A stretch of DNA of 64,000 nucleotides from Blastopirellula sediminis (lineage in GTDB: Bacteria > Planctomycetota > Planctomycetia > Pirellulales > Pirellulaceae): positions 434,001 through 498,000 of the forward strand of contig NZ_JAJKFT010000004.1 in the NCBI RefSeq assembly GCF_020966755.1, read 5' to 3'. A model generated the notes under the pieces. The model saw nothing but the letters and a program-made list of their open reading frames with translations. It was not told where the DNA came from and made no database searches. Of this stretch, positions 1 through 14,900 are shown piece after piece; within the stretch, counting starts at the first letter, position 1, and each line of letters begins with the position of its first letter. Position numbers and translations under genes: made by a program.

Positions 1-1905
1 CGAAGTATGTATGGTTGATAGGAAAGCTTGTATTTCAACTTGTAGCTCACGAACCAGCACCTCGTTGTTGTCAGCTCGAGCGCGATCGATCTCACCTAAT
101 AGTCGCTCTGCTTCGTCGCGATATTGATCAATTGCTTGCTTGTCCGAGATGGCGCCCAACGTATCAAGAAGTGGATTGTGTTTTGACGTAAGTCCATCTT
201 CGATGGCAGTTCTTGCGACGATTAGATAGTTGCAGTATTCCGCAGCTGATCCGCACACAATTTCAACAGCACTTATTGCTTCACCAGGCCTTGAAAGCAA
301 CTGGTGAATATAACCAACCCCCTTGTGCCCAAGGACAATAAACTCCTTTCCTCCCTGAAATCGCACTTGCCATGCCTCGCCTTTCCGCCTGAACACGTTT
401 TCCGGTAGATCTTCTTTTCCAAGCTTCGCGGAAACGGTGCAGGGCAGGCGAGATTCGTACACAATCCGAAGCATCGAATCTGGTGGTAAACTACGTTGAC
501 GAATGGCCCTCCCATGCTCAGCGAGCATTTTGTCAATTACGCGATTCACCTCCCCTGAATGTTTTTTATACATGTCGAAGCATCTCGGTAATCGCGCTCC
601 AACGCTTTCATCTAGGTAAGGCAGTGCTCTAGCCACTTCCGGGAACTTCTTCAGGAATTGCAGCGGACCATCGATTAGGTCCACCTGATTGGCGCGCTCA
701 AGATAGTTGGCGAACAACGTTTTGTCTTCGTTAATATGTTCGCTCTTGGAGCGACTTTCGGTGAAGATATCCATTCGGTATTGTTCGAGCGGATCATGGT
801 TTTCCAGTCCGGCGGCAAGGATTGCAAATCGTCGATCAATGCATTGTGAGCAATAGCCGCAATGCGAATGTTGATTTGAGATCTCCCATGTGTGAGTGCA
901 ACTAATTGAATCCGCGATGAGATCGGCACACTCCGCCCTGGAGATCAGTTTTGCTATCTCACCTTTCGTGTTCCAATGAAAGGGATTATCGACACAAAAC
1001 GGCTTACCGCTGACGAGAGTCAGTAATGACTGAAATCCGTGGATTACACGTGGATGGGTCGTCCTTGTCGCATTGCCGCCGACGACATGGGCGCAAATCG
1101 GCAAATTCAAACTGATAACGCCATTCTCGTAGAACCGAACATGAGATAACCCCAGCATCTCCGCGATGGTTGCCCCCAAAGTCACGAAGAGAAACGAGCG
1201 ACTTCTTTGAGTGTATTCACGATTCATCGATTTCTTCTTGTTCACCGTGACACGAACGTGGCTCGGTAGATTATTCGTTGCCTTGGTGTTGAGTAATCGT
1301 CGCAGTTTCTCGTAGCGGATGTCGAGCTTTTGCGTCGCGCGATGATTTACAAGTAAGACTGGATTCTTCTGATTCACTACTTCTTCAACGGCGCCTCCTA
1401 CAGAATCCACGCCCCCAGAAAACATGACTACCCGCTCCGGTAAATTCCGACGAACTTCGTCATCGGTGAAGTTTAAGAAAGTCTGAAATGAAGACTGGTG
1501 TTTAATTTCCGAGAAGATAAAGTCGTAATGATCATCGGACAGGAACGAGAGCGTCTCACAAAGAACCTTCTGGGTTTCTGCTGATCGCCAAAATTCGAGG
1601 TCGCGTACTGAAATGAAAAAATGAAACCGTCGACGCCAGAAGCTGCCAAACGACTCGACGTCTCTGGCGCCGCGTGGGTTAGTTTGATCGGCTGCAAAAA
1701 CATACGTAGCGATGTCGAGTAAATCCCGAAATCGAGCCGGTACCTCCTTGTACAGCCGCTTCTGAATTTCATCGATTCGCAGATTGAGCTTGCAATCATC
1801 GTCGGAGCCATAGATATGAAGACGAGTCGTGTTAGATTCGCATTCGGTCGAGAGTTGCGGCAATGAATCGCCACATATGATGTAGCGATCAATGTCCATT
1901 GGCAT
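1..1905 (-). CDS. QueC-like PP-loop enzyme with long C-terminal extension, partial (3' end off window)
   Basis: The frame is open from an ATG at 1905 (alternative ATG at 1899) to the left edge, giving at least 635 residues; GGAG lies just upstream of 1905. A PP-loop SGGVDS is at residues 163-168. A zinc-type cluster has Cys336 and then CGYCSQC at 349-355, the arrangement of QueC, which makes preQ0 from carboxy-deazaguanine. QueC is normally about 230 residues, so the roughly 160-residue N-terminal part and at least 270-residue C-terminal part are additions. Near residues 510-635 the sequence resembles a winged-helix-like C-terminal domain with a trailing helix that I recall from other bacterial regulators; this is a resemblance only. 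The start overlaps the upstream gene by 17 bases, so the two are probably co-translated. No queuosine-pathway neighbours are visible. QueC homologues also occur in Qat and type IV CBASS defence systems, and that role fits the mobile context better. Confidence 0.85.
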   Translation of the reverse strand, partial: MPMDIDRYIICGDSLPQLSTECESNTTRLHIYGSDDDCKLNLRIDEIQKRLYKEVPARFRDLLDIATYVFAADQTNPRGARDVESFGSFWRRRFHFFISVRDLEFWRSAETQKVLCETLSFLSDDHYDFIFSEIKHQSSFQTFLNFTDDEVRRNLPERVVMFSGGVDSVGGAVEEVVNQKNPVLLVNHRATQKLDIRYEKLRRLLNTKATNNLPSHVRVTVNKKKSMNREYTQRSRSFLFVTLGATIAEMLGLSHVRFYENGVISLNLPICAHVVGGNATRTTHPRVIHGFQSLLTLVSGKPFCVDNPFHWNTKGEIAKLISRAECADLIADSISCTHTWEISNQHSHCGYCSQCIDRRFAILAAGLENHDPLEQYRMDIFTESRSKSEHINEDKTLFANYLERANQVDLIDGPLQFLKKFPEVARALPYLDESVGARLPRCFDMYKKHSGEVNRVIDKMLAEHGRAIRQRSLPPDSMLRIVYESRLPCTVSAKLGKEDLPENVFRRKGEAWQVRFQGGKEFIVLGHKGVGYIHQLLSRPGEAISAVEIVCGSAAEYCNYLIVARTAIEDGLTSKHNPLLDTLGAISDKQAIDQYRDEAERLLGEIDRARADNNEVLVRELQVEIQAFLSTIHTS

Positions 1906-2683
1906 TTGCTCCAACCCGTAACTCGTCATTGATTTTCTTCAAAGCCCAAGAGGCAAACCCCTGAACCGAATCCCGTGAGATTGCTCCATGTTCTTGGTAG
2001 ACGTGTAGTGAAAACCACTCGCCCGAGTACTGCTCGACAATCTTCGACGCTTCCCGACAATGCGTTTCTAAGGCGTTGTCGAACTCAGCCATTTGGTTCA
2101 TGGTTGCAAAGCGTTGCCCATCGCCGAGATGTGTAGCCAATGTACGACTTAGAAAGTAGTTCATGCTCTCACACGTGAGGCGGGAGTAGAATTCACGAGA
2201 GAGATGAGCAAATTCTTTCTCTTTAGAAAAGTCGGACAACGCCGCCTTTATGTCGTCCGCTCGCGTGTCAAACAGCGATTGCTGCTGAAGTTTAGGCTCC
2301 ATCCGAGTAACCACTGCGTCACAGAGGGCACGTTGCGCCAAATCGCCTAAATCCGATCGTGTAATTTCCTGATACGTGGCGTTGTCGAGCGCTTCGCTAA
2401 GTCCAACGACAACCTCGGTGATAGAACTGTTTTCAGGAATATTTACGCCGTGTTCGCGCAAATATCCGACCGGATCGGATGACCTGCCAGCTAAACCAAG
2501 TTGAGTTAGCAGCCATACTGCGTGATTGTAGCCGCAATCATCTTGAACGAACGAGAAGGATTTCTCAGCTGCCCTAATTGTGGCTTCGGCGACTTGAGCA
2601 GTATCCGCGCCTGCGGCGATCAGTTGTACAACGTCACGCCATGCTCTTGTTCGCGGAAGAGCGCCAAGTCGCGTATGTCCCAT
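1889..2683 (-). CDS. Helical protein with Met-Gly N-terminus, partner of QueC-like enzyme
   Basis: This 264-residue protein begins MGHTRLGALPRTR and is otherwise mostly helical and charged, with no signal peptide or membrane segment and no catalytic motif I can name. Its stop codon lies inside the start region of the QueC-like gene, so the two form an operon. The striking feature is the N-terminus: Gly at position 2 followed by a basic, conserved-looking segment. In QueC-containing defence systems the QueC homologue is reported to modify the N-terminus of a partner protein (nucleobase-protein conjugation; recalled, not checked). This protein is the obvious candidate substrate here. That role is inference. 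It could instead be a structural or sensor subunit. A 146-base non-coding leader precedes it. Confidence 0.8.
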   Translation of the reverse strand: MGHTRLGALPRTRAWRDVVQLIAAGADTAQVAEATIRAAEKSFSFVQDDCGYNHAVWLLTQLGLAGRSSDPVGYLREHGVNIPENSSITEVVVGLSEALDNATYQEITRSDLGDLAQRALCDAVVTRMEPKLQQQSLFDTRADDIKAALSDFSKEKEFAHLSREFYSRLTCESMNYFLSRTLATHLGDGQRFATMNQMAEFDNALETHCREASKIVEQYSGEWFSLHVYQEHGAISRDSVQGFASWALKKINDELRVGANANGH

Positions 2684-2829
2684 GTCTAGCTTTGCTTCTC
2701 ATGTAGAACGAAACGGTCCTCTGTGGGCGTGCTCGTCTCGGTATAAATCTGCAGTTGGGATGTGTGTGCTCGTGTGGTTCAAAGGATCGCATCGTTTTTT
2801 ATCGCCATGGGAATCGCGATAGTCAAACA

Positions 2830-3264
2830 TTACTCTGAAAAAACTTCCTGACGTGGTTCACTTGTCAGTTCTTTCCACATTCGCCGTTGCTTTCGCCAGT
2901 CGGGCGTCAGAGCAATGGGTTGGAGTTGACGAAGGTGCAGTGGGTCGCGCCCGCGATCGGTGTCGGGAAAGAACAGAATGGCTTCCTGGATATCGGGGGC
3001 CAGCATCCGCAGGTTCATGATTTGCGTGATGCGGGCACGAGTGACGTGCCCGAGTCGGGCGAGTTCCGCGTAGTCGGTCGCATCGCCAGCCTGGATCAAT
3101 TCGTCGAAGCGGATCGCCAGCGCCATCAGTCGTGCGACGCGTGGCACACGGCCGCTCGATTCTAGCGTTGGCGTTGGGCCATCTCCTTTATGGACGTTCT
3201 TGCGACCTCCGCGGCCGACTCGCTGAAAATGGATCTGCGACACAATCGTAATGGACTGGTTCAT
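2830..3264 (-). CDS. HTH accessory protein of the recombinase cassette
   Basis: A 144-residue basic protein. Around residues 64-97 (YAELARLGHVTRARITQIMN) there is a ParB/KorB-type helix-turn-helix, with the second helix reading like a recognition helix. The N-terminus is rich in Arg, Lys and Gly and probably unstructured. Its ATG overlaps the TGA of the recombinase gene (ATGA), so translation is likely coupled. Proteins of this kind commonly follow large serine recombinases in planctomycete and proteobacterial elements. A role as DNA-binding accessory factor or regulator of the cassette is inferred. Confidence 0.8.
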   Translation of the reverse strand: MNQSITIVSQIHFQRVGRGGRKNVHKGDGPTPTLESSGRVPRVARLMALAIRFDELIQAGDATDYAELARLGHVTRARITQIMNLRMLAPDIQEAILFFPDTDRGRDPLHLRQLQPIALTPDWRKQRRMWKELTSEPRQEVFSE

Positions 3265-4847
3265 GCAGCGCTCTCCGTTTTAGGGCCGGCGATTTTATCG
3301 GCCAAAGTCTTGATTCCACTGGGGTGAAACGTGATCGACAACTTCCCCGAAGATCCGTCATAGTCGACCCGCTCAACAATTAGTTGAACTAAGCGAGTCT
3401 GTTCTCGCGGTGTGAGCGAATCCCAAACCGGATCGAAAAGGGCCATCGCGTTGATGATCTCGGGCTGGTCAACGATCTCGCGGCCAAGCGTGATGAGCTG
3501 TGCGCGAATTTCGGCTTCCCGTTTTTCTGCACCGCGAATCCGATCCTGCAAGTCGGCAAGCCGATCGGTGGCGGGCGTGTTCTCTTCACCCGGAGCAATT
3601 TGTCCTACCACTTTACGAATCTCTCCGTTCCATCGCATCAACTCGCGATCTAGTCCTTTTAGTTCAGTCTCGAGGGTGGCGACTCGTGATTGCCCTTGTC
3701 TTTGCGCCTGGGTGATCGTTTCGTGAAGGAGCGTAGAATCGCGACCGATGCACTTGATCTGCCCGACTACGAAACGCTCGATCTCGCCTGCGGGAATTGA
3801 CTTGGAAGGACAAGAGTGCCAACCGCGTTTCTGGGCCGAGGTGCAAACGTAGTAGCGATAGCGCTTTGTCACGTTCTTCGTTGAGTGGGACGGGGACATG
3901 GCGCAACCGCAGGGTACGCAGTGGAGAATGCCTTTGAGCAACGCCCCGAATTTGTTCCGCACGGCGGCCCCGCCAGTGCGACCATTGCGAGCCAGGAGGG
4001 ACTGCACCCGCTGCCACATTTCGTTCTCGATGATGGCGACATGCTCGCCTTCATGGACCTCTTCCTTGTATTTGATTTTGCCGGCGTAGGTGACGTTGGT
4101 GAGCAGCTTGTGCAAGCTGGTCTTGGTAAAGGTCTTGCCGCCGCGCTCGTGCCCCTTGCGAGTCGTCCATCGTTTATTAAGCCATCCTCGCTTATCAATC
4201 TCCTGAACCGTGGCGATAAGTGATTGATGCTCGAGATAGAGTTCAAATATCGTCTTTACGCGAGCGGCTTCGTCTTCGTTGGCAATCTGTTTCGAGCCAC
4301 GCGGGTCTACGTCATAGCCAAGCACCGGCATGCCGCCCGACCACTTTCCCCGACGACGGGCCGCGGCGATTTTGTCCCGGGTTCGTTCGGAGATGATCTC
4401 ACGCTCGAACTGGGCGAAGGACAAGAGCACGTTGAGCATCAACCTTCCCATCGATGTGGAAGTATTGATCAGCTGCGTGACGCTAACGAACGAAATCTGA
4501 TGCCTATCAAACGTCTCGACCATTTTGGCGAAGTCGAGCAGTGACCTACTGAGGCGATCGACCTTGTAGACGACAATGCAGTCAACCTTGCCTGCCTCCA
4601 CGTCGGCCAGTAGGCGTTTTAGTGCCGGCCGTTCCATATTGCCACCGGAGAACCCGCCGTCGTCGTACCGGTCGGGCAGGCATTCCCAGCCTTCGTTGGC
4701 TTGGGATTTGATGTAGTTCTCTCCCGACTCGCGTTGGGCATCGAGCGAGTTGAACTCCTGCTCCAGCCCCTCTTCGGTCGATTTGCGGGTGTAGATGGCA
4801 CAGCGGATGGCGGGGGCGGTTGCGGACTTTCGATTTCGGTTGGTCAT
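3261..4847 (-). CDS. Large serine recombinase
   Basis: A 528-residue site-specific recombinase. The resolvase catalytic domain occupies about residues 14-165, with the likely nucleophile Ser23 in YTRKSTEEG and the VYKVDRLSRS motif near residue 100. A 'recombinase' DNA-binding domain follows (about 175-290, containing GYDVDP). A zinc-ribbon segment with Cys pairs (HCVPCGC, later YYVCTSA and SCPSK) is next, then a coiled coil (about 375-420) that usually controls the direction of recombination. The length and order match large serine integrases. The gene is overlapped by ATGA junctions on both sides, so the cassette is one transcription unit. It probably integrates or excises the left-hand island. 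No att sites could be proven within the window. Confidence 0.93.
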   Translation of the reverse strand: MTNRNRKSATAPAIRCAIYTRKSTEEGLEQEFNSLDAQRESGENYIKSQANEGWECLPDRYDDGGFSGGNMERPALKRLLADVEAGKVDCIVVYKVDRLSRSLLDFAKMVETFDRHQISFVSVTQLINTSTSMGRLMLNVLLSFAQFEREIISERTRDKIAAARRRGKWSGGMPVLGYDVDPRGSKQIANEDEAARVKTIFELYLEHQSLIATVQEIDKRGWLNKRWTTRKGHERGGKTFTKTSLHKLLTNVTYAGKIKYKEEVHEGEHVAIIENEMWQRVQSLLARNGRTGGAAVRNKFGALLKGILHCVPCGCAMSPSHSTKNVTKRYRYYVCTSAQKRGWHSCPSKSIPAGEIERFVVGQIKCIGRDSTLLHETITQAQRQGQSRVATLETELKGLDRELMRWNGEIRKVVGQIAPGEENTPATDRLADLQDRIRGAEKREAEIRAQLITLGREIVDQPEIINAMALFDPVWDSLTPREQTRLVQLIVERVDYDGSSGKLSITFHPSGIKTLADKIAGPKTESAA

Positions 4848-5341
4848 TGGGTCTGCTCCTTTCCAAGGCGGAAGAAGTGGTACCCGTTGCAGTGCTGGCC
4901 CGTAATCGCCTTGGCGACCGCGCTGAGCGACTTGTAGACCTCGCCCTCGAACTCGAATCCCTGCGGGAGCACTTTCACTTGGAGCGTTTGTCCCTTGTAC
5001 TCGCGGTTGATGATGGTGCCAGGTGGCGGCAAGCGATCGTCACTTTTGGTCACCAACGCCGCGGACCTCGTGCGTGAGGCGGGCGCTGGCTTCGCCGGTT
5101 TGGCTTTGGGAGGCGATAGTCGCACGTCGGCATCGTTGGCCAACTCGGCGGCGCGGTGGCGTGCGCGTTCCGACAGGTCGCCTTCCTCCAGCGATTGCAG
5201 CCGCCACGCGATCCGCTTGATGAGCCACGGCTTGTTGCCGGCCTTTGTTTCTTCGCCAAACACCTCGGCGTAGCGCCCTCGCAATTCGCGGACGTTCATC
5301 CGCTGCAGCGAAGCGACCTCTTTTCCGACGTTCAGATTCAT
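4844..5341 (-). CDS. DUF2924 family protein
   Basis: A 165-residue protein of the DUF2924 type. The N-terminal half (RELRGRYAEVFGEE... KRIAWRLQ) is helical and matches the family. The C-terminal half contains the signature-like INREYKGQTLQVKVLPQGFE and AVAKAITGQHCNGYHFFRL segments, with a Pro/Lys-rich linker between. DUF2924 proteins are encoded next to large serine recombinases in many bacteria, as here (ATGA overlap with the recombinase start). Their function is not established; a recombination accessory or DNA-binding role is inferred from the linkage. GGAGAGACGC lies just upstream of the ATG. Confidence 0.88.
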   Translation of the reverse strand: MNLNVGKEVASLQRMNVRELRGRYAEVFGEETKAGNKPWLIKRIAWRLQSLEEGDLSERARHRAAELANDADVRLSPPKAKPAKPAPASRTRSAALVTKSDDRLPPPGTIINREYKGQTLQVKVLPQGFEFEGEVYKSLSAVAKAITGQHCNGYHFFRLGKEQTQ

Positions 5342-5374
5342 GCGTCTCTCCTTTTCTCGGGGTCTTGGAAACCG

Positions 5375-5587
5375 TTAACCGTTGTGGACAGTGAGCACGG
5401 TTTCGTCCGAAACCTCAAGGCATGAAGAGACCGATTTCGCCAGGTTTTCAAGGGCGGAAGGTTCGGGGGCGTCGTCGGTCCATGCCGCCCGGGCGTGGAG
5501 TCGGAGAACGCCATCCGCTAGAATTTGAGCGATGGCAGTGCGACGCTCGTCAGGCGCCATGGAACAAGAATCAGCGAATGGTAGCAT
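5375..5587 (-). CDS. Small conserved-looking protein, first gene of recombinase cassette
   Basis: A 70-residue acidic protein containing MAPDERRTAIAQILADGVLRL, a helix-rich segment I associate with small proteins ahead of DUF2924/recombinase pairs. The start at 5587 is chosen because GGAG sits about seven bases upstream; an in-frame start at 5614 has no such site. It ends 33 bases before the DUF2924 gene. No enzymatic motif is present. Function unknown. Confidence 0.6.
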   Translation of the reverse strand: MLPFADSCSMAPDERRTAIAQILADGVLRLHARAAWTDDAPEPSALENLAKSVSSCLEVSDETVLTVHNG

Positions 5588-5661
5588 GGGTAATCTCCAA
5601 ATGGAGTTGCCCACAACGACCTTCGCTTGGCGACTGACGCGGTGTCTGGCAGTAACAGAAT

Positions 5662-5686
5662 GGTTAACAGCTTCTATCTGTTAACC
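5662..5686. promoter_or_regulatory. Perfect 9-bp inverted repeat between divergent genes
   Basis: GGTTAACAG (5662-5670) and CTGTTAACC (5678-5686) form a perfect inverted repeat with a seven-base spacer. It lies between the leftward recombinase cassette (start 5587) and the rightward gene at 5740, which is where an operator for both would sit. An alternative is a recombination site, because the same CTGTTAAC core recurs near and inside the tRNA-Asn gene. No T-run follows, so a terminator is less likely. Confidence 0.5.
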
Positions 5687-5739
5687 TACCCTCTTGGTGC
5701 AACAATTGACGGAAAAGTGAAAAATAGAACGGCGACGCA

Positions 5740-6375
5740 ATGATTCCAGTCGAGTTGATACCACATGACCACTCGGATCGCCTGAACCAGGTGGTGGATC
5801 AGGCGTGGCACATATTTCAATCGCATTTCATCTACAAGCGGCATCCGATACTCAAGGAGGCGCCGTTCCAGCATCATTTCGCGAACATTCTCTCCGCGTT
5901 AGGCTCACTATATTGCGTGGAACGAAGCGACATTTTCTTTGTTGACCTCGAGACGCGGTGCGAAGGCGTCAAAGGCAAATCAAAGTACGTCGATATTACT
6001 TGTTCTTTTCCGAATGCAAACGTCTCCTGCGCGATCGAATTGAAATTCAAAACCGCGCAACAAGGCGCACAAGACCATGGGCGGATTGACGCTTACGTGG
6101 ATATCGAAGCGGTCGAGTTAGTCTGCGATTCGCAGTTCACACTTGGGCGCTTCTTCATGATCACCGACAGCTCGGTGTACGTGAATCCGTCCCAAAGAGG
6201 CGTCGGTACGGTGTTTTGCATGCACGACGGATTTCAGGTGACGCCAGGGCAGGAAATTGCGTGCCCCCAGAGCAAAGGCCGAGAAACGGTCGTGGTCCAA
6301 TTGAAGAACGCACACGTGTTCGAGTGGCAGCAGCACGGTGGCTGGTACTTTCTTGAGATTTGTGTTGGCGATTGA
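5740..6375 (+). CDS. PD-(D/E)XK-like nuclease-fold protein
   Basis: A 211-residue soluble protein I do not recognise as a named family. The core looks like a PD-(D/E)XK fold: a helix with Glu40 (LKEAPFQHHF), then a strand ending in Asp85 (KYVDITCSF), then Glu100-Leu-Lys102 (CAIELKFK). Together these give the E...D...ExK arrangement. The rest of the C-terminal half is beta-rich with no further motif. It starts about 55 bases after an inverted repeat and is followed 15 bases later by the Ntn-hydrolase-like gene on the same strand, so the two probably share a transcript. Nuclease activity is inferred from the motif only; the fold also occurs in non-nucleases. Confidence 0.7.
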   Translation: MIPVELIPHDHSDRLNQVVDQAWHIFQSHFIYKRHPILKEAPFQHHFANILSALGSLYCVERSDIFFVDLETRCEGVKGKSKYVDITCSFPNANVSCAIELKFKTAQQGAQDHGRIDAYVDIEAVELVCDSQFTLGRFFMITDSSVYVNPSQRGVGTVFCMHDGFQVTPGQEIACPQSKGRETVVVQLKNAHVFEWQQHGGWYFLEICVGD

Positions 6376-6390
6376 ATCGAGTTTCAAGTC

Positions 6391-7353
6391 ATGACGCTAA
6401 TCCTTGGTCGGATATCGCAGGATCGCATAGAACTCGGGGCAGACGGGCTCAGTACCAGTTCGGGATTGAGGGGCCAGCCTGGTCGGACAACATTGCAGAA
6501 GCTCTTTCCAATGGAAAGCCACCCCATCGCTGTTGCGCAAGTCGGTGCCAACTCGGTAAAACGTAATGGTCGAGATTCAAGTCTCTCGTGCCTTCTGCGT
6601 GAGGCGCTACGACTGATCGAAACCGAAAACTCTGGGATGGCTGTCGAGCACGTAGCATCAGCGTTGGCTGGTCGCTTGTGGAGCACCTGTGAATCTGGGG
6701 ATTTCAACCTATGGGTGCTGGGGTTCGAACAAGCAAGCGGCAGTGCGCGAATATTCCGTGTTGGAATTTGCAAGTCAGCTGCCGCACATGGGCCGCTCGT
6801 TGAATCATCCGACGAAAAGGCCATCGCTGACGGTTCAGGAAAGGCATTCGTCAACTCGATATGCGGCGACCTCTATGCCGCATTCGAAACTGCGCTTAAG
6901 AGCCAGCAGGCTGCTGACGAGTTCACGTTTGGCGGACATTGGCATTCGCTAGCGATTCAAGGGCCACGGTCGCCAGCGTGGACACGTCGACCACGAACTG
7001 GGACGCTCGGCATTCAGGAATTGCTTGAACAACGCGACTTAAGCTGCGTCAGTCTATCTGCGGCCTCTCCTCAAGAGGATATCCGAGCACAGATGAAGCA
7101 GATGAAGAATGCTCTTTCCCAAAGAGCACAAACGGAAGGCGGTAAACGGCCGCGCACGATTGGTGGTTGTATGGAACACTGGGAGCGAAGCCGGCCCGAA
7201 AAGAATCCGCCCAACTGGAACAGAGTGTTTCGGCTCGTCGCGATAGGGGACGAGGCCAACATTGCTGACGCTGACGATGTTTCTGACGATGACGCAGTGC
7301 TCTACGCTACTCACGTTCAAGAGTTGACGGCATCGCTTCCCTCCCCGCTCTGA
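6391..7353 (+). CDS. Proteasome/HslV-like Ntn-hydrolase
   Basis: A 320-residue protein whose first 40 residues align with the N-terminus of HslV and proteasome beta subunits: Met1-Thr2, then RIELGADG with Asp18, then LQK with Lys37. If Met is removed, Thr becomes Thr1 and Asp becomes Asp17, as in the catalytic set. The Lys is at 36 rather than 33 because of a short loop insertion. Residues to about 170 keep an alternating strand/helix pattern (PIAVAQVG, FNLWVLGFE). The C-terminal 150 residues are unique and charged. No HslU-like ATPase is nearby. A peptidase or amidase role is inferred. It is probably co-transcribed with the PD-(D/E)XK-like gene and converges with the next gene. Confidence 0.65.
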   Translation: MTLILGRISQDRIELGADGLSTSSGLRGQPGRTTLQKLFPMESHPIAVAQVGANSVKRNGRDSSLSCLLREALRLIETENSGMAVEHVASALAGRLWSTCESGDFNLWVLGFEQASGSARIFRVGICKSAAAHGPLVESSDEKAIADGSGKAFVNSICGDLYAAFETALKSQQAADEFTFGGHWHSLAIQGPRSPAWTRRPRTGTLGIQELLEQRDLSCVSLSAASPQEDIRAQMKQMKNALSQRAQTEGGKRPRTIGGCMEHWERSRPEKNPPNWNRVFRLVAIGDEANIADADDVSDDDAVLYATHVQELTASLPSPL

Positions 7354-7370
7354 CATTGGCAATCGGGCAC

Positions 7371-8057
7371 TCAGATGGTGTCAGGAGGCAGCGTCGGCAA
7401 TAATTCCTGTGCTCTATCAAGAAGCGGGTTGCAGCGAGAGATGACGTCCGAAAGACTCTCGCTTGTTAGCCGGTTAACGGCGAGCAAACCCACAGTCGTC
7501 AGCATGAACCATATGGAGTCCGCTAGAGCAAGCTTGGCGAGGTACAGGTCGGGATCACAGGGCAGTTGGAGCAGGGTCTGAAATCGGGGGTTATTATGTT
7601 TGAATCCGCAAAGGAATCGATACTTCTGATACTCCTCCTCAGTGCGATCCGCATTCCAACCGCGCTTGCTGCCTGAAGTTTCGACCACCTTCTTCACCGA
7701 ATCCATGGAGCGATGAAGATCGGTCCAATTCAGGAATTCTTCGGCTTTGGCATCGTCGTTACTTACGTAGGTGAGGAAGTGCGACTGCTCAAAGAGATTT
7801 GCGGCACCGCTTACGGATTGAAATCCGTGTCCGTTGCACGCGAGAAGTTCAACTGCACGCAGTTCCTCGCCAAGACGGCGCAGCAGCAGCCTTTCAATGT
7901 TAAGCGATGTGCTCGGCGTCGCCTTAACAATCTCGGGATGCTGTGCGATGTCAGCAACTAACTGGTGGGTGTCAGCGATCACATCGAGCAGTGGCGACAA
8001 TTCGTCGAGGTTTTGCGAACGCCATTGCGCCTCGACTGGTTCCCAATAATTTGACAT
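7371..8057 (-). CDS. Helical hypothetical protein (DUF5677-like)
   Basis: A 228-residue, almost wholly helical protein. The stretch LLLRRLGEELRAVELLACNG and the later FLCGFKHNNP resemble DUF5677-type proteins, which often occur singly in genomic islands; the match is from memory and weak. There is no signal peptide, membrane span or catalytic motif. It faces the Ntn-hydrolase gene with 17 bases between stops. Function unknown. Confidence 0.6.
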   Translation of the reverse strand: MSNYWEPVEAQWRSQNLDELSPLLDVIADTHQLVADIAQHPEIVKATPSTSLNIERLLLRRLGEELRAVELLACNGHGFQSVSGAANLFEQSHFLTYVSNDDAKAEEFLNWTDLHRSMDSVKKVVETSGSKRGWNADRTEEEYQKYRFLCGFKHNNPRFQTLLQLPCDPDLYLAKLALADSIWFMLTTVGLLAVNRLTSESLSDVISRCNPLLDRAQELLPTLPPDTI

Positions 8058-8101
8058 GCGACGTGCCTCCGGTTGATTTCGATCATTATGCGCTGCAAAG
8101 A

Positions 8102-8218
8102 GGGGTCCGAAAGGGACCGGCCTGTTAACTTTTCGGGGTCTGTTAATCAGAGACTCAGAGAGTTTGGGCGAGAGATTTCGGGGTGCGGAAGGAACCTTGA
8201 AGGTCCCTTTCGGACCCC
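8102..8218. repeat. 17-bp perfect inverted repeat spanning 117 bases
   Basis: GGGGTCCGAAAGGGACC (8102-8118) is repeated exactly in inverted form at 8202-8218, separated by 83 bases. The spacer has two CTGTTAA motifs and TTCGGGGT repeats. The whole stretch lies between the helical hypothetical gene and tRNA-Asn, in about 315 bases (8058-8373) with no convincing gene. It could fold as one long RNA arm, be a recombination or attachment structure, or be a small mobile repeat. Confidence 0.7.
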
Positions 8219-8371
8219 GGAAGTTCTCTCTCGAACCAGAGAGCGCGACGCCGCTGGCGGGATCGTCGCAAATCCTTGCCAGAACTGGCCAAGAACGCGA
8301 AACGCCCGGCAGCCGATCTCTCGACGCCGGGCGTTAACTGGTCGGTGGTTTCTTTCCGCTGAAAAGAAACG

Positions 8372-8448
<77 letters not shown>

Positions 8449-8461
8449 AGTGAAAAGGTAT

Positions 8462-8489
8462 AATTTAGCTTCGCCGGATTGAAACGCAA
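8462..8489 (-). promoter_or_regulatory. Possible promoter of tRNA-Asn
   Basis: On the minus strand TTGCGT (8489-8484) and TAAATT (8467-8462) are 16 bases apart, with the -10-like box about 15 bases before the tRNA. This fits a sigma70-type promoter. Planctomycete promoter consensus is poorly known, so the call is tentative. The rest of 8490-8722 shows no gene. Confidence 0.35.
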
Positions 8490-8722
8490 CACCCCATCGC
8501 CGCAACTTCGGGCCCGGTCAGCGACTTTTTCGCGCGGTATTTTCCGCAGGACCGGAAGTTCTTCCAAATTTAGCTAGCGGGGCCGAGGCCGACTTCGCTG
8601 GTCGCGGCGAAATCTCGCAGGCGAATTCGGAGGTAGGGATGGAGTGCGATCGGCAGGCGGAACAGGTCGTCTGCTGCTGGAAGACTGACAGGTGGCAGTT
8701 CACGCGGTGACGCGTTGCAGCG

Positions 8723-9148
8723 TCACTGGGTGCGGACTTTTTCCATGAAGACGGAGTTGCCGCGGTCGTTGTACTGCACGACAGTCATGTAGGCGTTGAT
8801 CAGCATCACTCCACGCCCCGATTCGTTCTCCAAGTTTTCCTCCTCGGTCGGATCGGGGACGTCCATTGGATTGAAACCGGGACCTTCGTCGGTTACTCGA
8901 AGAGACACACGATCGACTCCGACGTTCATTTCAATCTGAACGTTTTTTTCTGGGTTGTAAGCGTTGCCATGCTTAATCGCATTGACGATCGCTTCTTCCG
9001 CAGCCAAATGGATGCCGAACACGTCGGACATGCCCCAAGCGTGCTCTTCCAGTTTCGAAAGGAGCTGCTTGACGAGGCGTTGACCTTCGTGCGTGTCGCT
9101 CGGAATCGTTTCCGAACAAGTCCAAAGCCAGTTGTTGTTTGCTCCCAT
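8723..9148 (-). CDS. RsbW/SpoIIAB-type serine-protein kinase, anti-sigma-like ATPase
   Basis: A 141-residue single-domain GHKL ATPase of the HATPase_c_2 type. The N box is EEAIVNAIKHGN, the G1 box is VTDEGPGFNP and the G2 region is ESGRGVMLINAYM. Such proteins phosphorylate a STAS anti-anti-sigma factor and sequester a sigma factor or other partner. The STAS gene lies 126 bases upstream on the same strand, making a partner-switch pair. No sigma factor gene is adjacent, so the final target is unknown. Length is typical. Confidence 0.9.
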   Translation of the reverse strand: MGANNNWLWTCSETIPSDTHEGQRLVKQLLSKLEEHAWGMSDVFGIHLAAEEAIVNAIKHGNAYNPEKNVQIEMNVGVDRVSLRVTDEGPGFNPMDVPDPTEEENLENESGRGVMLINAYMTVVQYNDRGNSVFMEKVRTQ

Positions 9149-9274
9149 GGTTTCTTGGGGGTTGCGGGAGTAACGGGAGTGCGACCCGATAGGAGTCGCG
9201 GGATGAGCCGCTGAGGAATGAAGAAAAGATATTAGGGCGCCGGCCGGCGGAAAATACGAGGCGAGCGTTAGTCG

Positions 9275-9634
9275 TTACGATTTGAACGCGGCCAAAGCGT
9301 CAGGAACGTCGTCACGGATGTCGAACAACTTGTTCAGCTTGGTGATCGCGAAAACTTCCATGATCTCAGGACGAATATTGCTCATGCGGAGCTTGCCGCT
9401 GTGAGCTTTGACCTGCTTTTCCAGATTGATGAGCTTGCCAAGCGCGGAACTCGACAGGAACTCAACGTGCGAAAAGTTGAGCAGGATGTTCTTTTTCTGT
9501 TCTTGTTCGACCAGCGCAGTAAATTCCTGGCCGATCTCTTGGATTTGGGAATCGTCTAGAATCTTGCGATCATTGAACTGAACGACAGTCACTCCGCTGA
9601 CTTCGGAAATCCCAAGACGCCGATTATCGGCCAT
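9275..9634 (-). CDS. STAS-domain anti-anti-sigma factor
   Basis: A 119-residue STAS protein. The phospho-acceptor loop is seen as HVEFLSSSALGKLINL, where one of the Ser residues near position 58 would be phosphorylated by the kinase partner. The tail KLNKLFDIRDDVPDALAAF is typical. It is the first gene of the pair with the RsbW-like kinase. In the known cycle, the unphosphorylated form binds the kinase and frees its target. Confidence 0.92.
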   Translation of the reverse strand: MADNRRLGISEVSGVTVVQFNDRKILDDSQIQEIGQEFTALVEQEQKKNILLNFSHVEFLSSSALGKLINLEKQVKAHSGKLRMSNIRPEIMEVFAITKLNKLFDIRDDVPDALAAFKS

Positions 9635-9806
9635 GCATCCACCTCGCTGGCAATGAGCGTGTAGCCGTCGCGTTGCCCAAAAGCGATCCGGCTATTTGAC
9701 GTAACCCGTTATTTCAAATGATATTCGTGCAAACGGTGCTGTCAACGCCTCCAAATGCTAGCAAGGGGCATCTTCTCGCAGAATTGATCCGCCTTGGGTT
9801 CCGATT

Positions 9807-10226
9807 TTACTGACGGCGACCTTTGAGCGTGACGTGCTCGATCAGCAAGTAGTTGGAACCGCGATACTCGGTCACCACCCCCGAGACGGTCCAGGTGATT
9901 TTGCTGGCCGATTGTTCCATTGATTGGGCGACCCGCTCCATCGCCAGGTTCTCCAAGACATGGAAATCCTGCGTTCCGTCGTCGCTGACGAAGTTCATCC
10001 GGTCCCCCACCCAGTCGAATTGGCCGACGCTGTCGGTAATTCGCGTCCCTTCGCGGACCCGGTTGCGACGACGTTTTTCGTCGGCCTGGGCGCTGGCGCG
10101 GTCGGTCACCACATCGATCTCGGGGGCCGAAATCGGGGGTGGCGACCCATTCTGCTGTTGGGCTTGGGCAATGAACGGGAGAGCCGCGAGGGCCAAGATG
10201 GCGAAGACGCCAAGGGTTCGTAACAT
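9807..10226 (-). CDS. Secreted hypothetical protein
   Basis: A 139-residue protein from the ATG at 10226, with a clear signal peptide (MLRTLGVFAILALAALPFIAQA, cleavage after AQA). The frame extends further upstream, but only this start puts the signal peptide at the N-terminus. The mature part has an Arg-rich segment (EKRRRNRVREGT) and then a small beta domain: FDWVGDRMNFV, ITWTVSGVVTEYRGSNYLL. The strand pattern suggests an OB-like or small barrel fold. Function unknown. Confidence 0.75.
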   Translation of the reverse strand: MLRTLGVFAILALAALPFIAQAQQQNGSPPPISAPEIDVVTDRASAQADEKRRRNRVREGTRITDSVGQFDWVGDRMNFVSDDGTQDFHVLENLAMERVAQSMEQSASKITWTVSGVVTEYRGSNYLLIEHVTLKGRRQ

Positions 10227-10492
10227 CGGAGTGACCAAGGGTAGGGATTCGCTCGAACTACTGCTACGTAGCAATTTTAGGACACGCTTTGGGGCGCGCT
10301 CGGGTTGCGTTTTGGCGACAAGGTTGCGATTTCGCAACGCTGATTTTTGTTCGCAACGAATCGAAAAGATGTGTAAGGTAATGGAGTGTAACGATTTAGG
10401 GGCGGTGGCGCTGCGGCAGGAAGCGATTTGGCGCCGAGGTTGCATTTTGGCACGGAAGACCGTTTATTCGCCAGAATTCGCCGAGCTGCACC

Positions 10493-11296
10493 ATGTTTCT
10501 TCGACTTGCCGCACTGCTGATCCTCGGAAACCTTATCGGCTCTCCGCTTCTCGCCGCTGAAGTTTCCGTCACGCTTGAAAGCGGACGAACCGTGGCTGGG
10601 GCGGTTTCGGTGAAAACCGACGACGCGCAGCTCTGGATCAACTCGGGGAGCGGCGGGATCAAAGTGGTTCGCCCGATCGACTGGGATCGGATCGTGTCGG
10701 CCACGGTCGACGGCGAAGCGATTTCGGTCGACCAGTTGCGGCAGCAGCAGTTCGCTCTCGAGGAGCCGGAAATCCGCATAAAGAGCGAGATCATTGCTCG
10801 TCCCGTGCAACAGGCCAGCTACGAGGAAGAGACCTACGTGCCGCGACTGGCTTCGCTGCAGGTCTACGCAACGCTCGAAAACTGGGACTACGACATCATC
10901 GCCGACGGGCTGCGATTGACGATCGACGCCCGGGATCAATACGGGCGAACCTTCGACTTGCAGGGGCAATACGACGCCGAGCTCTACGCCTTCAAGCGAT
11001 ATGACTTTTACACCGTTCCTTCGCAGCGAGGCGTCGTTTCGACCCGGATCGGTCGCTGGGGAGGAACGATCGATTCGCAGGCCGGGGCCAATCCGATTCG
11101 CCTGACGTATCAGGGGCAAAACCCGGAATTAGACGACTCTTTCGCGCCCGAAGGGCTGTTGAAAGTTCGCATCGTCGTGCCGGGGCAGGGAGTCTTCGAA
11201 CGTAAAGTCGATTGGGTTCGGATTCGGACCTGGTCACCCTATCGCGATTACTCGCAACTGAACCAGTCGCCCAATCTTCCCTATCACCGCCGCTAG
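10493..11296 (+). CDS. Secreted hypothetical protein, beta-rich
   Basis: A 267-residue protein with signal peptide MFLRLAALLILGNLIGSPLLAAE. The first 80 mature residues (VTLESGRTVAGAVSVK... IDWDRIVSATVDGE) resemble the small beta domains that many planctomycete secreted proteins carry. The middle contains a second beta region (YATLENWDYDIIADGLRLTI). No catalytic motif is seen. It may be an envelope protein. It converges with the next gene. Confidence 0.8.
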   Translation: MFLRLAALLILGNLIGSPLLAAEVSVTLESGRTVAGAVSVKTDDAQLWINSGSGGIKVVRPIDWDRIVSATVDGEAISVDQLRQQQFALEEPEIRIKSEIIARPVQQASYEEETYVPRLASLQVYATLENWDYDIIADGLRLTIDARDQYGRTFDLQGQYDAELYAFKRYDFYTVPSQRGVVSTRIGRWGGTIDSQAGANPIRLTYQGQNPELDDSFAPEGLLKVRIVVPGQGVFERKVDWVRIRTWSPYRDYSQLNQSPNLPYHRR

Positions 11297-11298
11297 GT

Positions 11299-11598
11299 TT
11301 AGCCGGGCTTCTGCATCGCCAGGCTATGCAGGATCAGCACGCCGCCGACCGAGATGAGCGCCCAGCCGAGCCATTCGGGCGGATTGATCGTCCGCTTGGT
11401 CGTGGAGGCTTGCGATTCGGCGGCCGGAACGAACGCGGGGGGGATGTCTCCCGATGCGGCTTGTTGTTGCACCATTCGCTTGGCGATGAACGAGCTCGCT
11501 TCTTCGGTCAGGGTCACCGAATCGATGATGCGAAATTGGATCCCGAGCGCAAGCACGATCAGGCCGATCATGAAGTATTGGTTGCGATTCAGTTCCAT
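11299..11598 (-). CDS. Small two-span membrane protein
   Basis: A 99-residue protein with a hydrophobic helix near the N-terminus (FMIGLIVLALGIQF) and another near the C-terminus (EWLGWALISVGGVLIL), separated by about 45 polar residues. The loop contains SSFIAKRMVQQQ. No family recognised. It ends two bases after the stop of the facing gene. Confidence 0.7.
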   Translation of the reverse strand: MELNRNQYFMIGLIVLALGIQFRIIDSVTLTEEASSFIAKRMVQQQAASGDIPPAFVPAAESQASTTKRTINPPEWLGWALISVGGVLILHSLAMQKPG

Positions 11599-11916
11599 TG
11601 GGGTGGCTCTCAGTCGTCGGGCACGTGAGCAGATGTATCTTTAAGTATCGAGCTAGCTGGCGCTGGATTTCAGCTGTTCCGCCTGGGGCGCGGTTGTGGC
11701 GCGAGTATCGATCGCAGGCATATTTCGGGCGAAACGGGCCCCAGAGCGGGGCGAGAGGAGGCAATTTGGCTTAATTTGGCGCCCTTTTGCCTGGTTAGGA
11801 TGCAAATCTCGCGTGAACGATAGAAGCGAGGTTCTCCGCTACCCACACTAGGTGGATTAGCTCGAATCGGCTACCTTACCGGATTAAATCGCGGTACCAA
11901 TCTGAAGCTATCCTCC
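11599..11916. other. Intergenic, no gene seen
   Basis: About 318 bases between divergent genes at 11598 and 11917. Nothing but promoters would be expected. No strong hairpin, repeat or short coding frame with a ribosome site was seen. Confidence 0.6.
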
Positions 11917-14900
11917 ATGAATTCTTACGCCGAGTCCTTGATTCAAGCTGAAGCGGAGAGCGACGCCAAACGCGACGATCTCTGGTCGACCAGCTTTCTT
12001 GGATTGGTCGTGACGCAGATGTTGGGCGCGGTCAACGACAACATCTTTCGTTGGTTCGTGATCGGCATCGGCAAAGAGCAAGCCGCACAGAACACCGCTT
12101 CGGTGCTGATGGCGGGGACCGCCTGTTTCGTGCTGCCCTATATCTTGTTCGCCGCGCATGCCGGTTACCTGGCCGATCGCTACAGCAAGCGAACGGTGAT
12201 CGTGTGGTGCAAATGGGCCGAAGTGGCGATCATGTCGCTCGGCATCTTGTTCGTCCTCACCGACAGTTTTTGGTGGTTGTTGGTGACGGTCTTCCTGATG
12301 GGCGCCCAAAGCGCGCTTTACGGCCCGGCGAAACTGGGCGCCATTCCCGAAATGTTGAAGATGAAGCACATCTCTTCGGCGAACGGGATTCTCGGTCTGG
12401 GAACGGTTGTCGCCGTCGCGGTTGGAACTTTCCTCGGGAACTCGCTGAGCGATTGGACCGATCAAGGCACGACCAACATTGGACTAGCGGCGGCGATCTT
12501 GATTGGAACGGCGCTGGTCGGCGTTGGGGCGAGCTTGCTGATTCAGCCGCTGCCGGTCGCCAACGCCAACTTGTCGTTCCCGTGGAGTCCGATCGAAGCG
12601 GTCAAAGAAACGATCCACAACCTCCGCGTGCTGGGAGAAGATCGCGCCATCTTGCGAGTCGCGCTGGGAACGGCGTTCTTCTGGTCGTTGGCAAGTCTCG
12701 CGCAGTTAAATATTGACCAATTCGCCGCCGACGGCGGAACGACGACGCAGCAGCAAGTTGGGCCGCTCTTAATCGCGCTGGTCGCCGGTACGGCGGTCGG
12801 TTGCGTGTTGGCCGGATATTGGTCGCAAGGGCACGTGGAACTCGGCCTCTTGCCGCTGGGCGCCGCAGGGATGGCGCTCAGTTCGTTGTCGCTGTCGTTC
12901 GTCCATGGCGCGATCGTCAATCCGGACGAGACGTTGAACGCCGCTTATGGCATCACGTGCGCTCTACTATTCTCGCTCGGCGTCTTCGCCGGTCTGTTCG
13001 AAGTTCCGCTGGCGGCGTTCATGCAGCACCGGAGCGACCCACGGCACCGCGGCGTCATTTTGGCGGCAAGCAACTTTTTGACGTTTAGCGGATGCATGCT
13101 GGTCGCTATTCTTTTCATGGGGATGCGTTGGCAGATCTGGGAAGGTTCGGTCAACAACATCTCCGCCGCCCAGTACGAGGGAAGCCCCGAGTTTGAGGCT
13201 CGTCTGGCCCACGCGCTGGCGGTGCAAAAGAAGGAGTGGCGCGAAGGGGATCGCTCGGAAATCACGCAGGAGCAGATTAACCAGATCGCCGAGAGCGAAG
13301 ACGAACGCCGTAAGGCGACCGCCGAGTTGCTTTGGGTCGAACTTTCGCAAAGATTCAAACTGGGAGATTCGGTTGACCGGAGCGACGTGCTCGACCGTTT
13401 TCCCGAAGATAAGCAGTTAGCGGCGGCCGTGTTTCAACAAGCGTCAGGCTTGCCGCTCTTTTCGTCTCGTTTCATTTTCCTGTTCTGCGGAATCGCGACC
13501 GTGCCGGTGCTGTGGTACATCCTGCGACTGATCCCGCAGCCGGCGATTCGTTTTCTCGTCTGGCTCGCCAGCGAAACGTGCTACCGGATCCGCGTTTACG
13601 GCCGCGAGAATCTGCCGGTCAACGGCGGGGCGCTGCTCGTCTCGAACCATGTCACGTGGCTCGACGGCATCTTGTTGTTGTTGACCAGCAGCCGTCCGGT
13701 CCGGATATTCGTCTGGGCGGGGAACTTCCAGAGCAAGTGGTTCCGCGAGTTCGCCGAATGGCATGGCGCGATCATGATCGACAACGGCCCGAAGGGAATC
13801 TTGAAGGCGCTCCGCATCGGCAAAGCGGCGATCAAGAACGGCGAATTGGTCTGCATCTTCGCCGAAGGGGGCATCACCCGCAGCGGTCAGGTGCAAGGCT
13901 TCAAACGAGGCCTGATGAAACTGGTTGAAGGGACCGACGCCCCGGTGGTGCCGGTTTACCTCGACGAGTTGTGGGGCAGCATCTTCAGCTTCTCCGGCGG
14001 CAAGTTCTTCTGGAAGTATCCGCAAGGTTGGCGGACTCCGATTTCGATTCATTTCGGCAAACCGATCGAGGCGCCATACGACGTGTTTAAGATTCGCCAA
14101 GCGGTGCAGCGACTAGGTTCCCATGCTTTCGCGGTGCGACATGATCGCGTCGAACCGCCGGTGCAGGGGTTCGTCAAGTCGTGCAAGAAGCGACTCTTTG
14201 TGCGGAAGGTCGCCGACTCGACCGGCGTCGATCTGACCGGCGGCAAGCTGCTGGCCGGCACGATGATCATGCGCCGGCTTCTCAACCGTCATGTGCTGGC
14301 CAGCCGAGAAGAAGAGCCGATGGTCGGCGTCTTGTTGCCGCCGACCGGCGCCGGGGTGATTGTAAACGCGGCGCTGGCGCTTGATCGCCGCACGACGGTC
14401 AATTTGAACTACACGGTCGGCAACGACGTCCTCAACTCCTGCATTCGCCAGGCTGGCGTCAAGCATGTGCTGACCAGCCGGAAGTTCATGGAGAAGTTCG
14501 ACTACAAGCTCGACGCCGAAGTCGTGCTGCTCGAAGATTTGAAGACGAAGCCGACGACGATGGACAAAGTCGCGTGCGGCGCCGCGGCGTTCCTGACGCC
14601 GAGCCGAATCTTGAGCTGGCAGTTTGGTCTCGACAAGATCGAGCCGGAAGACCTGGTCACGGTCATCTTCACCTCGGGTTCGACCGGCGAACCGAAGGGG
14701 GTGATGCTGACCCAGGCGAACATCGCGTCGAACGTCCAGGCGGTCGACCAGATGGGGCACTTGCAGCACACGGACGTGATGGTCGGCATCCTGCCGTTTT
14801 TCCATTCGTTCGGCTATACGCTGACGATGTGGCCGGTCTTGGCGCTTGATATCGCCGGCGCATTCCACTTCAGTCCGCTCGAACCGAAGCAGATTGGCCA

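Follow-up and report, generated by a model that had tools for sequence, protein, structure and literature searches.

A two-gene module of a QatC-type enzyme and a Met-Gly-His partner protein in Blastopirellula sediminis, a probable sister type of the QatB-QatC core of Qat defence

The stretch of DNA analyzed here (the window) comprises 64,000 nt of Blastopirellula sediminis (NZ_JAJKFT010000004.1, positions 434,001-498,000, forward strand). Two overlapping genes lie at its left end, one encoding an enzyme that resembles QatC of the Qat defence system and one, upstream of it, encoding a helical protein that starts with Met-Gly-His (MGH). In an earlier note made from the sequence of this DNA, the pair had been described as a QueC-like gene overlapping an upstream Met-Gly gene; both genes were found in place, together with the SGGVDS loop and the four-cysteine cluster of the enzyme:

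1-1929, minus: QatC-like enzyme gene (643 of its 715 codons in the window; likely start codon at 1899)
1-468, minus: start of the C-terminal accessory domain of the enzyme, residue 488 onward
841-900, minus: Zn-type cysteines C344, C357, C360 and C363 of the enzyme
1051-1068, minus: TRTTHP active-site loop, enzyme residues 288-293, in the place of QatC T278/T280
1402-1419, minus: SGGVDS pyrophosphate-binding loop, enzyme residues 171-176
1889-2683, minus: MGH partner gene (264 aa, helical throughout; the enzyme's proposed substrate or partner)
2639-2683, minus: conserved N-terminal motif MGHTRLGALPRTRAW of the partner (letters checked against the sequence)

The last 72 codons of the enzyme gene are located left of the window edge, and the full gene (L002:15782-17929, minus) encodes 715 aa. 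Its first ATG (1929) lies inside the partner gene, which results in an overlap of 41 nt. When the first possible enzyme start was taken, the two genes overlapped in 119 of 120 homologous loci, 102 of the 120 falling within -41 to +3. For the window enzyme, translation more likely begins at the in-frame ATG at 1899, because the earliest possible starts of its homologues precede the end of the partner gene by a median of 11 nt (n = 120).

By its sequence, the enzyme is of the QatC type and not a queuosine-pathway QueC. It was recognized by the QatC models of PADLOC (E = 1.3e-53) and NCBIfam (E = 2.1e-62; 211.3 bits, which is below the equivalog cut-off of 280). With QueC, the preQ0 synthase, it has in common the pyrophosphate (PP)-loop fold, SGGxDS, and four cysteines. 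Canonical QueC identity was rejected, however, since the enzyme reached only 21.6 bits with the QueC model TIGR00364 (cut-off 150.3) and is surrounded by mobile-element genes rather than by a que operon; the QueC of the host itself is encoded elsewhere (G000:C10). When PDB was searched with the sequence, the good matches were QatC (9vlk, E = 9.2e-30, and 9zee), the sole other match being a neuroglobin (0.006). A homologue with 58% identity (L071, used in place of the window protein) was modeled with AlphaFold2 (predicted local distance difference test, pLDDT, 84), and the model matched QatC best (9y01_B; E = 5e-20, TM score 0.75 on the target), with QueC (3bl5; 5.4e-6) and Cap9 (9nto; 6e-4) behind it. 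In QatC, two loop threonines stand where QueC and Cap9 have the deazaguanine-reading tyrosine and aspartate, and mutating these threonines abolishes Qat defence (PMC13279940). Among 54 aligned homologues of the window enzyme, S161, G162, G163, D165, S166, R279, T281, H282, P283, and the four cysteines were invariant, position T278 was threonine in 46 and serine in 8, and position T280 was threonine in 53. All but one of 128 homologues of at least 540 aa contained [ST]R[ST]THP, SGGxDS, and the cysteine cluster, the exception (L054) having SRATHP instead. By our own reading of the sequence, the motifs given for the QatC cluster in PMC13329287 are largely present as well.

A maximum-likelihood tree (426 columns) was calculated from 52 enzymes, that is, 15 canonical QatC, 36 of the type found in the window (including L123 and L132, with the partner beyond the contig end), and one of a third type. 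The 36 module-type enzymes formed one clade (ultrafast bootstrap, UFBoot, 100) apart from the 15 canonical QatC. The third-type enzyme, of 470 aa (L168:1249-2661, minus; genome G109), was the sister of the MGH clade (support 99). It is preceded by a gene for a 177-aa partner that does not start with Met-Gly, and the protein encoded downstream was read as an XRE-type helix-turn-helix (HTH) protein with a metallopeptidase motif.

Homologues of the pair form a two-gene module in several phyla. The 137 module loci assembled here overlap to some degree, as some contigs were taken twice; they contain 102 distinct full partner sequences. Viral contigs (IMG/VR) were scanned with the enzyme alignment, and the best 80 of 157 relatives were kept. 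An intact Met-Gly partner was encoded in 73 of the 74 testable loci (71 MGH, one MGN, and one MGT). The two genes thus co-occur, the lack of which would have refuted the proposal of the earlier note. Six loci were dropped from this count as the partner was off, or cut by, the contig end (L104, L122, L123, L132, L148, and L149), and the single miss (L118) has a broken N-terminus. Searching from the partner side gave the same picture: an SGGxDS frame directly followed the partner in 37 of 40 loci from genomes (one, L051, being short and another, L021, running off the contig) and was found in 10 of 11 loci from viral contigs (L065 runs off its contig). The three genomic loci without such a frame are situated at a contig edge (L047), broken (L055), or truncated without a recognized enzyme (L057); a truncated partner without enzyme was also present in genome G029. 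When 392 Planctomycetota genomes were searched with the QatC model, 31 matched. Nine full-length matches of at least 303 bits were preceded by an MGTS-type QatB, whose start is internal to a longer frame in L152 and L158, and followed by a QatD homologue, whereas all seven matches of 158-195 bits had an MGH partner. The others were a partial match with an MGTS partner (G096), the third-type enzyme of G109 (139 bits), and 13 genomes below 26 bits. Among phage records, the window enzyme matched only two, both of Listeria phages (26% identity over 43%), and a plasmid search with the partners of the window and of locus L024 returned a Leptospira record only. On a Rhodobacteraceae plasmid, an enzyme remnant without partner (L019:7968-9224) was observed near IS3 transposases and next to a gene for a 1245-aa repeat protein. 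In the loci looked at, que genes were not neighbors of the module, and queC, in hosts having it, is located separately; the possibility that the enzyme homologues belong to ordinary queuosine operons can thus be set aside.

Conservation at the N-terminus of the partner was assessed with 25 representatives of less than 60% identity, 22 found via the enzyme and 3 via the partner; the loci of the two partner-based scans, which used MGH-containing peptide patterns, contributed none. The start of each partner was picked by a pattern demanding glycine at position 2 and coincided with the earliest possible start codon in 58 of 73 viral-scan loci and in 87 of 118 loci overall. The Met-Gly start, the conservation of which the note had named as a check, was indeed conserved: Gly2, which the start pattern required, was present in 25 of 25 representatives, His3 in 24, Leu9 in 23, Pro10 in 21, Thr12 in 19, and Trp15 in 20. 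The relative entropy of the first 15 columns averaged 2.95 bits, compared with at most 2.79 in any non-overlapping 15-column window and an average of 2.04. Among the 102 distinct sequences, 100 started with MGH, one with MGT, and one with MGN. The AlphaFold2 model of the partner had a mean pLDDT of 89.1. No Pfam or NCBIfam family matched the protein, and its fold had no match in PDB at E ≤ 0.001. Two candidate relatives were rejected, DpdH (a weak, partial PADLOC match; E = 0.0082) and the PHROG "DNA binding protein" (E = 0.084).

The closest known counterpart of the module is the QatB-QatC pair of Qat, with which it has in common the QatC fold and active-site signature and an overlapping upstream gene for a helical Met-Gly protein with a conserved proline and tryptophan soon after the start. 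QatBC alone protects against lambda, and this defence is abolished when QatB carries G2D or when the active site of QatC is mutated; in the QatB tail, Gly2 is essential and Pro16 and Trp18 are conserved (PMC13279940). Judged by sequence, the tail of the MGH partner has a layout like that of QatB, in different letters. The locus could be regarded as an ordinary Qat system of which qatA and qatD were lost or lie elsewhere, with nothing new about it; the enzyme does belong to the QatC family, and qatA adjoins only 34.3% of the QatC-cluster genes in one survey (PMC13329287). Against this stand the separate clade of the module enzymes, their length of 552-903 aa (in the tree set) with variable C-terminal domains, the failure to reach the NCBIfam QatC cut-off, and the different partner, MGHxRLGxLPRT with a short tail compared with MGTS and a usually long one (all 13 aligned canonical QatB start with MGTS). 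Moreover, when six QatA and six QatD proteins were used as BLAST queries (E 1e-5), homologues were detected in none of the 137 module loci, the flanks of which vary (of the 121 with both ends measured, 85 extend for 2.2 kb or more upstream and 0.9 kb or more downstream). In canonical Qat controls, the same search found QatD in nine and QatA in eight of nine loci despite short flanks. At the window locus, PADLOC detected no QatA, QatD, or CD-NTase among seven left-flank proteins, in line with the note, which had seen neither the Qat ATPase/TatD pair nor a CD-NTase beside the genes. Because the MGTS partner, QatA, and QatD were all lacking, the module was set apart from qatABCD, and an ordinary Qat system is considered an improbable explanation. 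No printed description of such a module was found in a literature search that left subscription papers and some preprints outside, and the main text of PMC13279940 contains none of the terms "MGH," "planctomycet," and "winged."

Beyond approximately residue 482, the module enzymes differ from each other. Of 36 representatives, 15 (the window protein among them) formed one group and 7 another, the others being three pairs and 8 singletons. Three actinobacterial plasmid records encode longer proteins that end in a relative of the 15-member type; by our own reading, these longer proteins appear to be of the ATPase or STAND type. Nine C-terminal segments were compared with Pfam, and two exceeded a family cut-off, a DpnII-MboI nuclease (PF18742; L018, E = 1e-10) and Trans_reg_C (L139, E = 4.8e-7); further domains were read by us as probable winged helices. 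A module enzyme of 903 aa (L059:8752-11460), from a metagenome-assembled genome titled Candidatus Sulfopaludibacter, has a C-terminal part of 438 aa without Pfam match.

To the right of the pair, the window contains a serine recombinase cassette, as the note had described it, and a tRNA gene:

2830-5341, minus: recombinase cassette of three genes
2830-3264, minus: 144-aa recombinase-associated protein (PHROG "recombinase")
3261-4847, minus: serine recombinase with Resolvase, Recombinase, and Zn-ribbon domains
4844-5341, minus: DUF2924 protein
8373-8446, minus: tRNA-Asn, right edge of the island

The low G+C content observed at the left end in the note was also borne out, with 48-52% in window positions 1-3000 compared with 53-60% in 3001-14000 (54-61% in L002 1-15000). 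Three accessory genes between the cassette and tRNA-Asn (5740-6375, 6391-7353, and 7371-8057) had no PADLOC matches, the first giving only a weak PDDEXK hint (E = 0.17). Two sister genomes are collinear with the window from ∼8261 (G333) or 8372 (G389) rightwards, while the DNA left of tRNA-Asn differs. In the 19 kb taken from each (L192 and L193), type I restriction genes (HsdR, S, and M) occupy this tRNA-Asn locus in one sister species. In the other, the locus contains a similar recombinase cassette (68% over 1.3 kb, opposite orientation) along with genes for a type III methyltransferase, a ResIII-type helicase, and a large NTPase, the last of which gave Avs-like and nuclease matches. From these sequences, the tRNA-Asn locus looks like a hotspot for defence cargo in the genus. 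Because sister species hold restriction systems and, in one case, an Avs-like gene at this tRNA-Asn, a defence role of the module is likely. The left flank of the pair was absent from the 19 kb of either sister genome, and a search of L002 1-16000 and the window with exact words of at least 14 revealed no attachment repeat matching the tRNA-Asn end. SIR2-domain genes were noted upstream of two other module copies (L013:2498-6928 and L017:10058-12145, minus), one of them encoding a 1476-aa SIR2-TPR-PIN protein.

Of 48 module loci with 3.5 kb or more of upstream sequence, 33 contained the recombinase family; the window locus is among the 48 and not among the 33, since L002 ends before its recombinase. 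This frequent association with serine-recombinase elements, together with the overlap of the two genes, would also be expected of a toxin-antitoxin-like addiction module that serves the mobile element rather than phage defence. That the full catalytic QatC signature is kept, that QatBC is known to defend (PMC13279940), and that sister species have a defence hotspot at this locus render the addiction module quite unlikely, bearing in mind that addiction and defence can overlap. Left of the enzyme gene, the DNA encodes a primase-like protein and a ParB-methyltransferase fusion with phage-family matches; across the enzyme and seven left-flank proteins, PADLOC assigned QatC to the former and methyltransferase models to the fusion. 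The primase-like neighbor, genes read as replication genes next to several other copies, and the 157 relatives on IMG/VR contigs (of which the best 80 were read) would fit a pair of phage or element genes acting on a host protein, by modifying it, to the advantage of the element itself, as a moron or anti-host function. However, in four Rhodobacterales loci (L048, L049, L050, and L053), the pair directly adjoins a putative tyrosine integrase, next to genes read as chromosomal, which would suit a small defence island. A moron or anti-host role is given little probability.

The explanation considered probable is that the pair constitutes an anti-phage module in its own right, related to the QatB-QatC core of Qat as a distinct sister type. 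It builds on what the sequences provide: the family and motifs of the enzyme, the co-occurrence of the two genes, the conserved partner start, loci devoid of QatA and QatD homologues, and an apparent defence-hotspot setting. Enzyme and partner would form a complex, Met1 of the partner would be removed, and the freed Gly2 tail, (M)GHxRLGxLPRT, would enter the QatC-type active site. There, the enzyme would activate a carboxylate with ATP and join it to the amine of Gly2; the donor may well differ from the 7-carboxy-7-deazaguanine (CDG) used by Cap9. The variable C-terminal domain (regulator-type, winged HTH [wHTH], or DpnII-MboI-type nuclease) would bring the complex to DNA or supply the effector, a role perhaps fulfilled by separate proteins in Qat, and the outcome would be an anti-phage effect. 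More confidence is placed in the more modest claim of a QatBC-like defence module than in the full mechanism. A bolder version would make the module an immune system of its own, widespread and consisting of two genes, whose QatC-family ligase joins a carboxylate other than CDG to the N-terminal glycine of the partner and whose exchangeable C-terminal domain (wHTH, regulator, or DpnII-MboI nuclease) senses DNA or kills; this version is conceivable and proposed here only tentatively.

Several observations weigh against the explanation considered probable. The first concerns the partner, which may not be homologous to QatB, as far as sequence and model comparisons go. Its alignment with the QatB profile (hhalign) was weak (27% probability, score 33.0), even if 40 column shuffles scored at most 18.2 and the reversed control 17.3. 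QatB was not among the best 50 of 222 PDB fold matches of the partner, in a library that holds a QatC chain and in which a QatB chain is unconfirmed, and only ∼12 residues precede the first helix in the AlphaFold2 model, compared with the tails of 30-90 residues in many QatB proteins (PMC13279940). The partner of locus L024 had no match in 50,697 phage records. Seven of the nine C-terminal segments exceeded no Pfam family cut-off. Finally, a 182-aa protein encoded 5 kb left of the pair (L002:10042-10590, minus) had a sub-threshold Pfam match to a Polbeta nucleotidyltransferase (E = 0.0096) and a PADLOC candidate match (E = 0.0055).

The identity of the donor adds to these points. The same module could perform Cap9-type deazaguanylation with CDG (NDG), since the enzyme has its fold and ATP site in common with QueC and Cap9. 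The QueC-derived Cap9 of type IV CBASS (cyclic oligonucleotide-based antiphage signaling system) acts on the N-terminal glycine of a partner, as is proposed for the module enzyme. Cap9 has a median length of ∼185 aa and keeps the base-reading tyrosine and aspartate (PMC13329287 and PMC13279940); the module enzyme has the T-R-T-T-H-P loop instead, with T-R-T in their place as in QatC (PMC13279940), and no CD-NTase or Cap10 was recognized by PADLOC in the seven left-flank proteins or the right-hand open reading frames scanned. The deazaguanine genes were searched for in 40 host genomes (14 + 26; one plasmid record was set aside and one genome left out), and queC exceeded its family cut-off in 37, as NDG would predict. 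The other three are Maritimibacter alkaliphilus (G393; no queD or queE match), Tepidicella xavieri (G395; no queD and only a partial queE match, 1.6e-6), and Fluviibacterium aquatile (G417; queD matched at 2e-7, queE not at all). All three retain tgt, as expected of organisms that salvage later bases, and have intact module motifs. Thus, three hosts seem, from their gene content, unable to make CDG, which is modest evidence against CDG as the donor. It does not prove another donor, as salvage, recent arrival, or an inactive module are possible, and the queE model is insensitive, exceeding its cut-off in only 2 of the 40 genomes. Absences of que genes can also be assembly gaps, because G402, a genome with queC, gave no match for either queD or queE, and G419, in which queC and queE are present, gave none for queD. 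On balance, NDG appears rather doubtful, while it deserves serious consideration. The proposal in the earlier note is supported in part. With the conserved Met-Gly start and the linkage of the genes, there is good support for the pair forming the core of a variant not described before, one related to QatBC. The deazaguanine part is in some doubt, given the T-R-T loop in place of tyrosine and aspartate and the three of 40 hosts.

The chemistry of QatC is stated as an open question by authors who could not reconstitute the reaction (PMC13279940). The module offers a simpler, two-gene version of QatBC with a sharply conserved tail motif. As a few hosts keep it without recognizable genes for de novo deazaguanine synthesis, the question of whether CDG is the donor becomes testable, and the exchangeable C-terminal domains hint at how QueC-type protein modification might be coupled to DNA.

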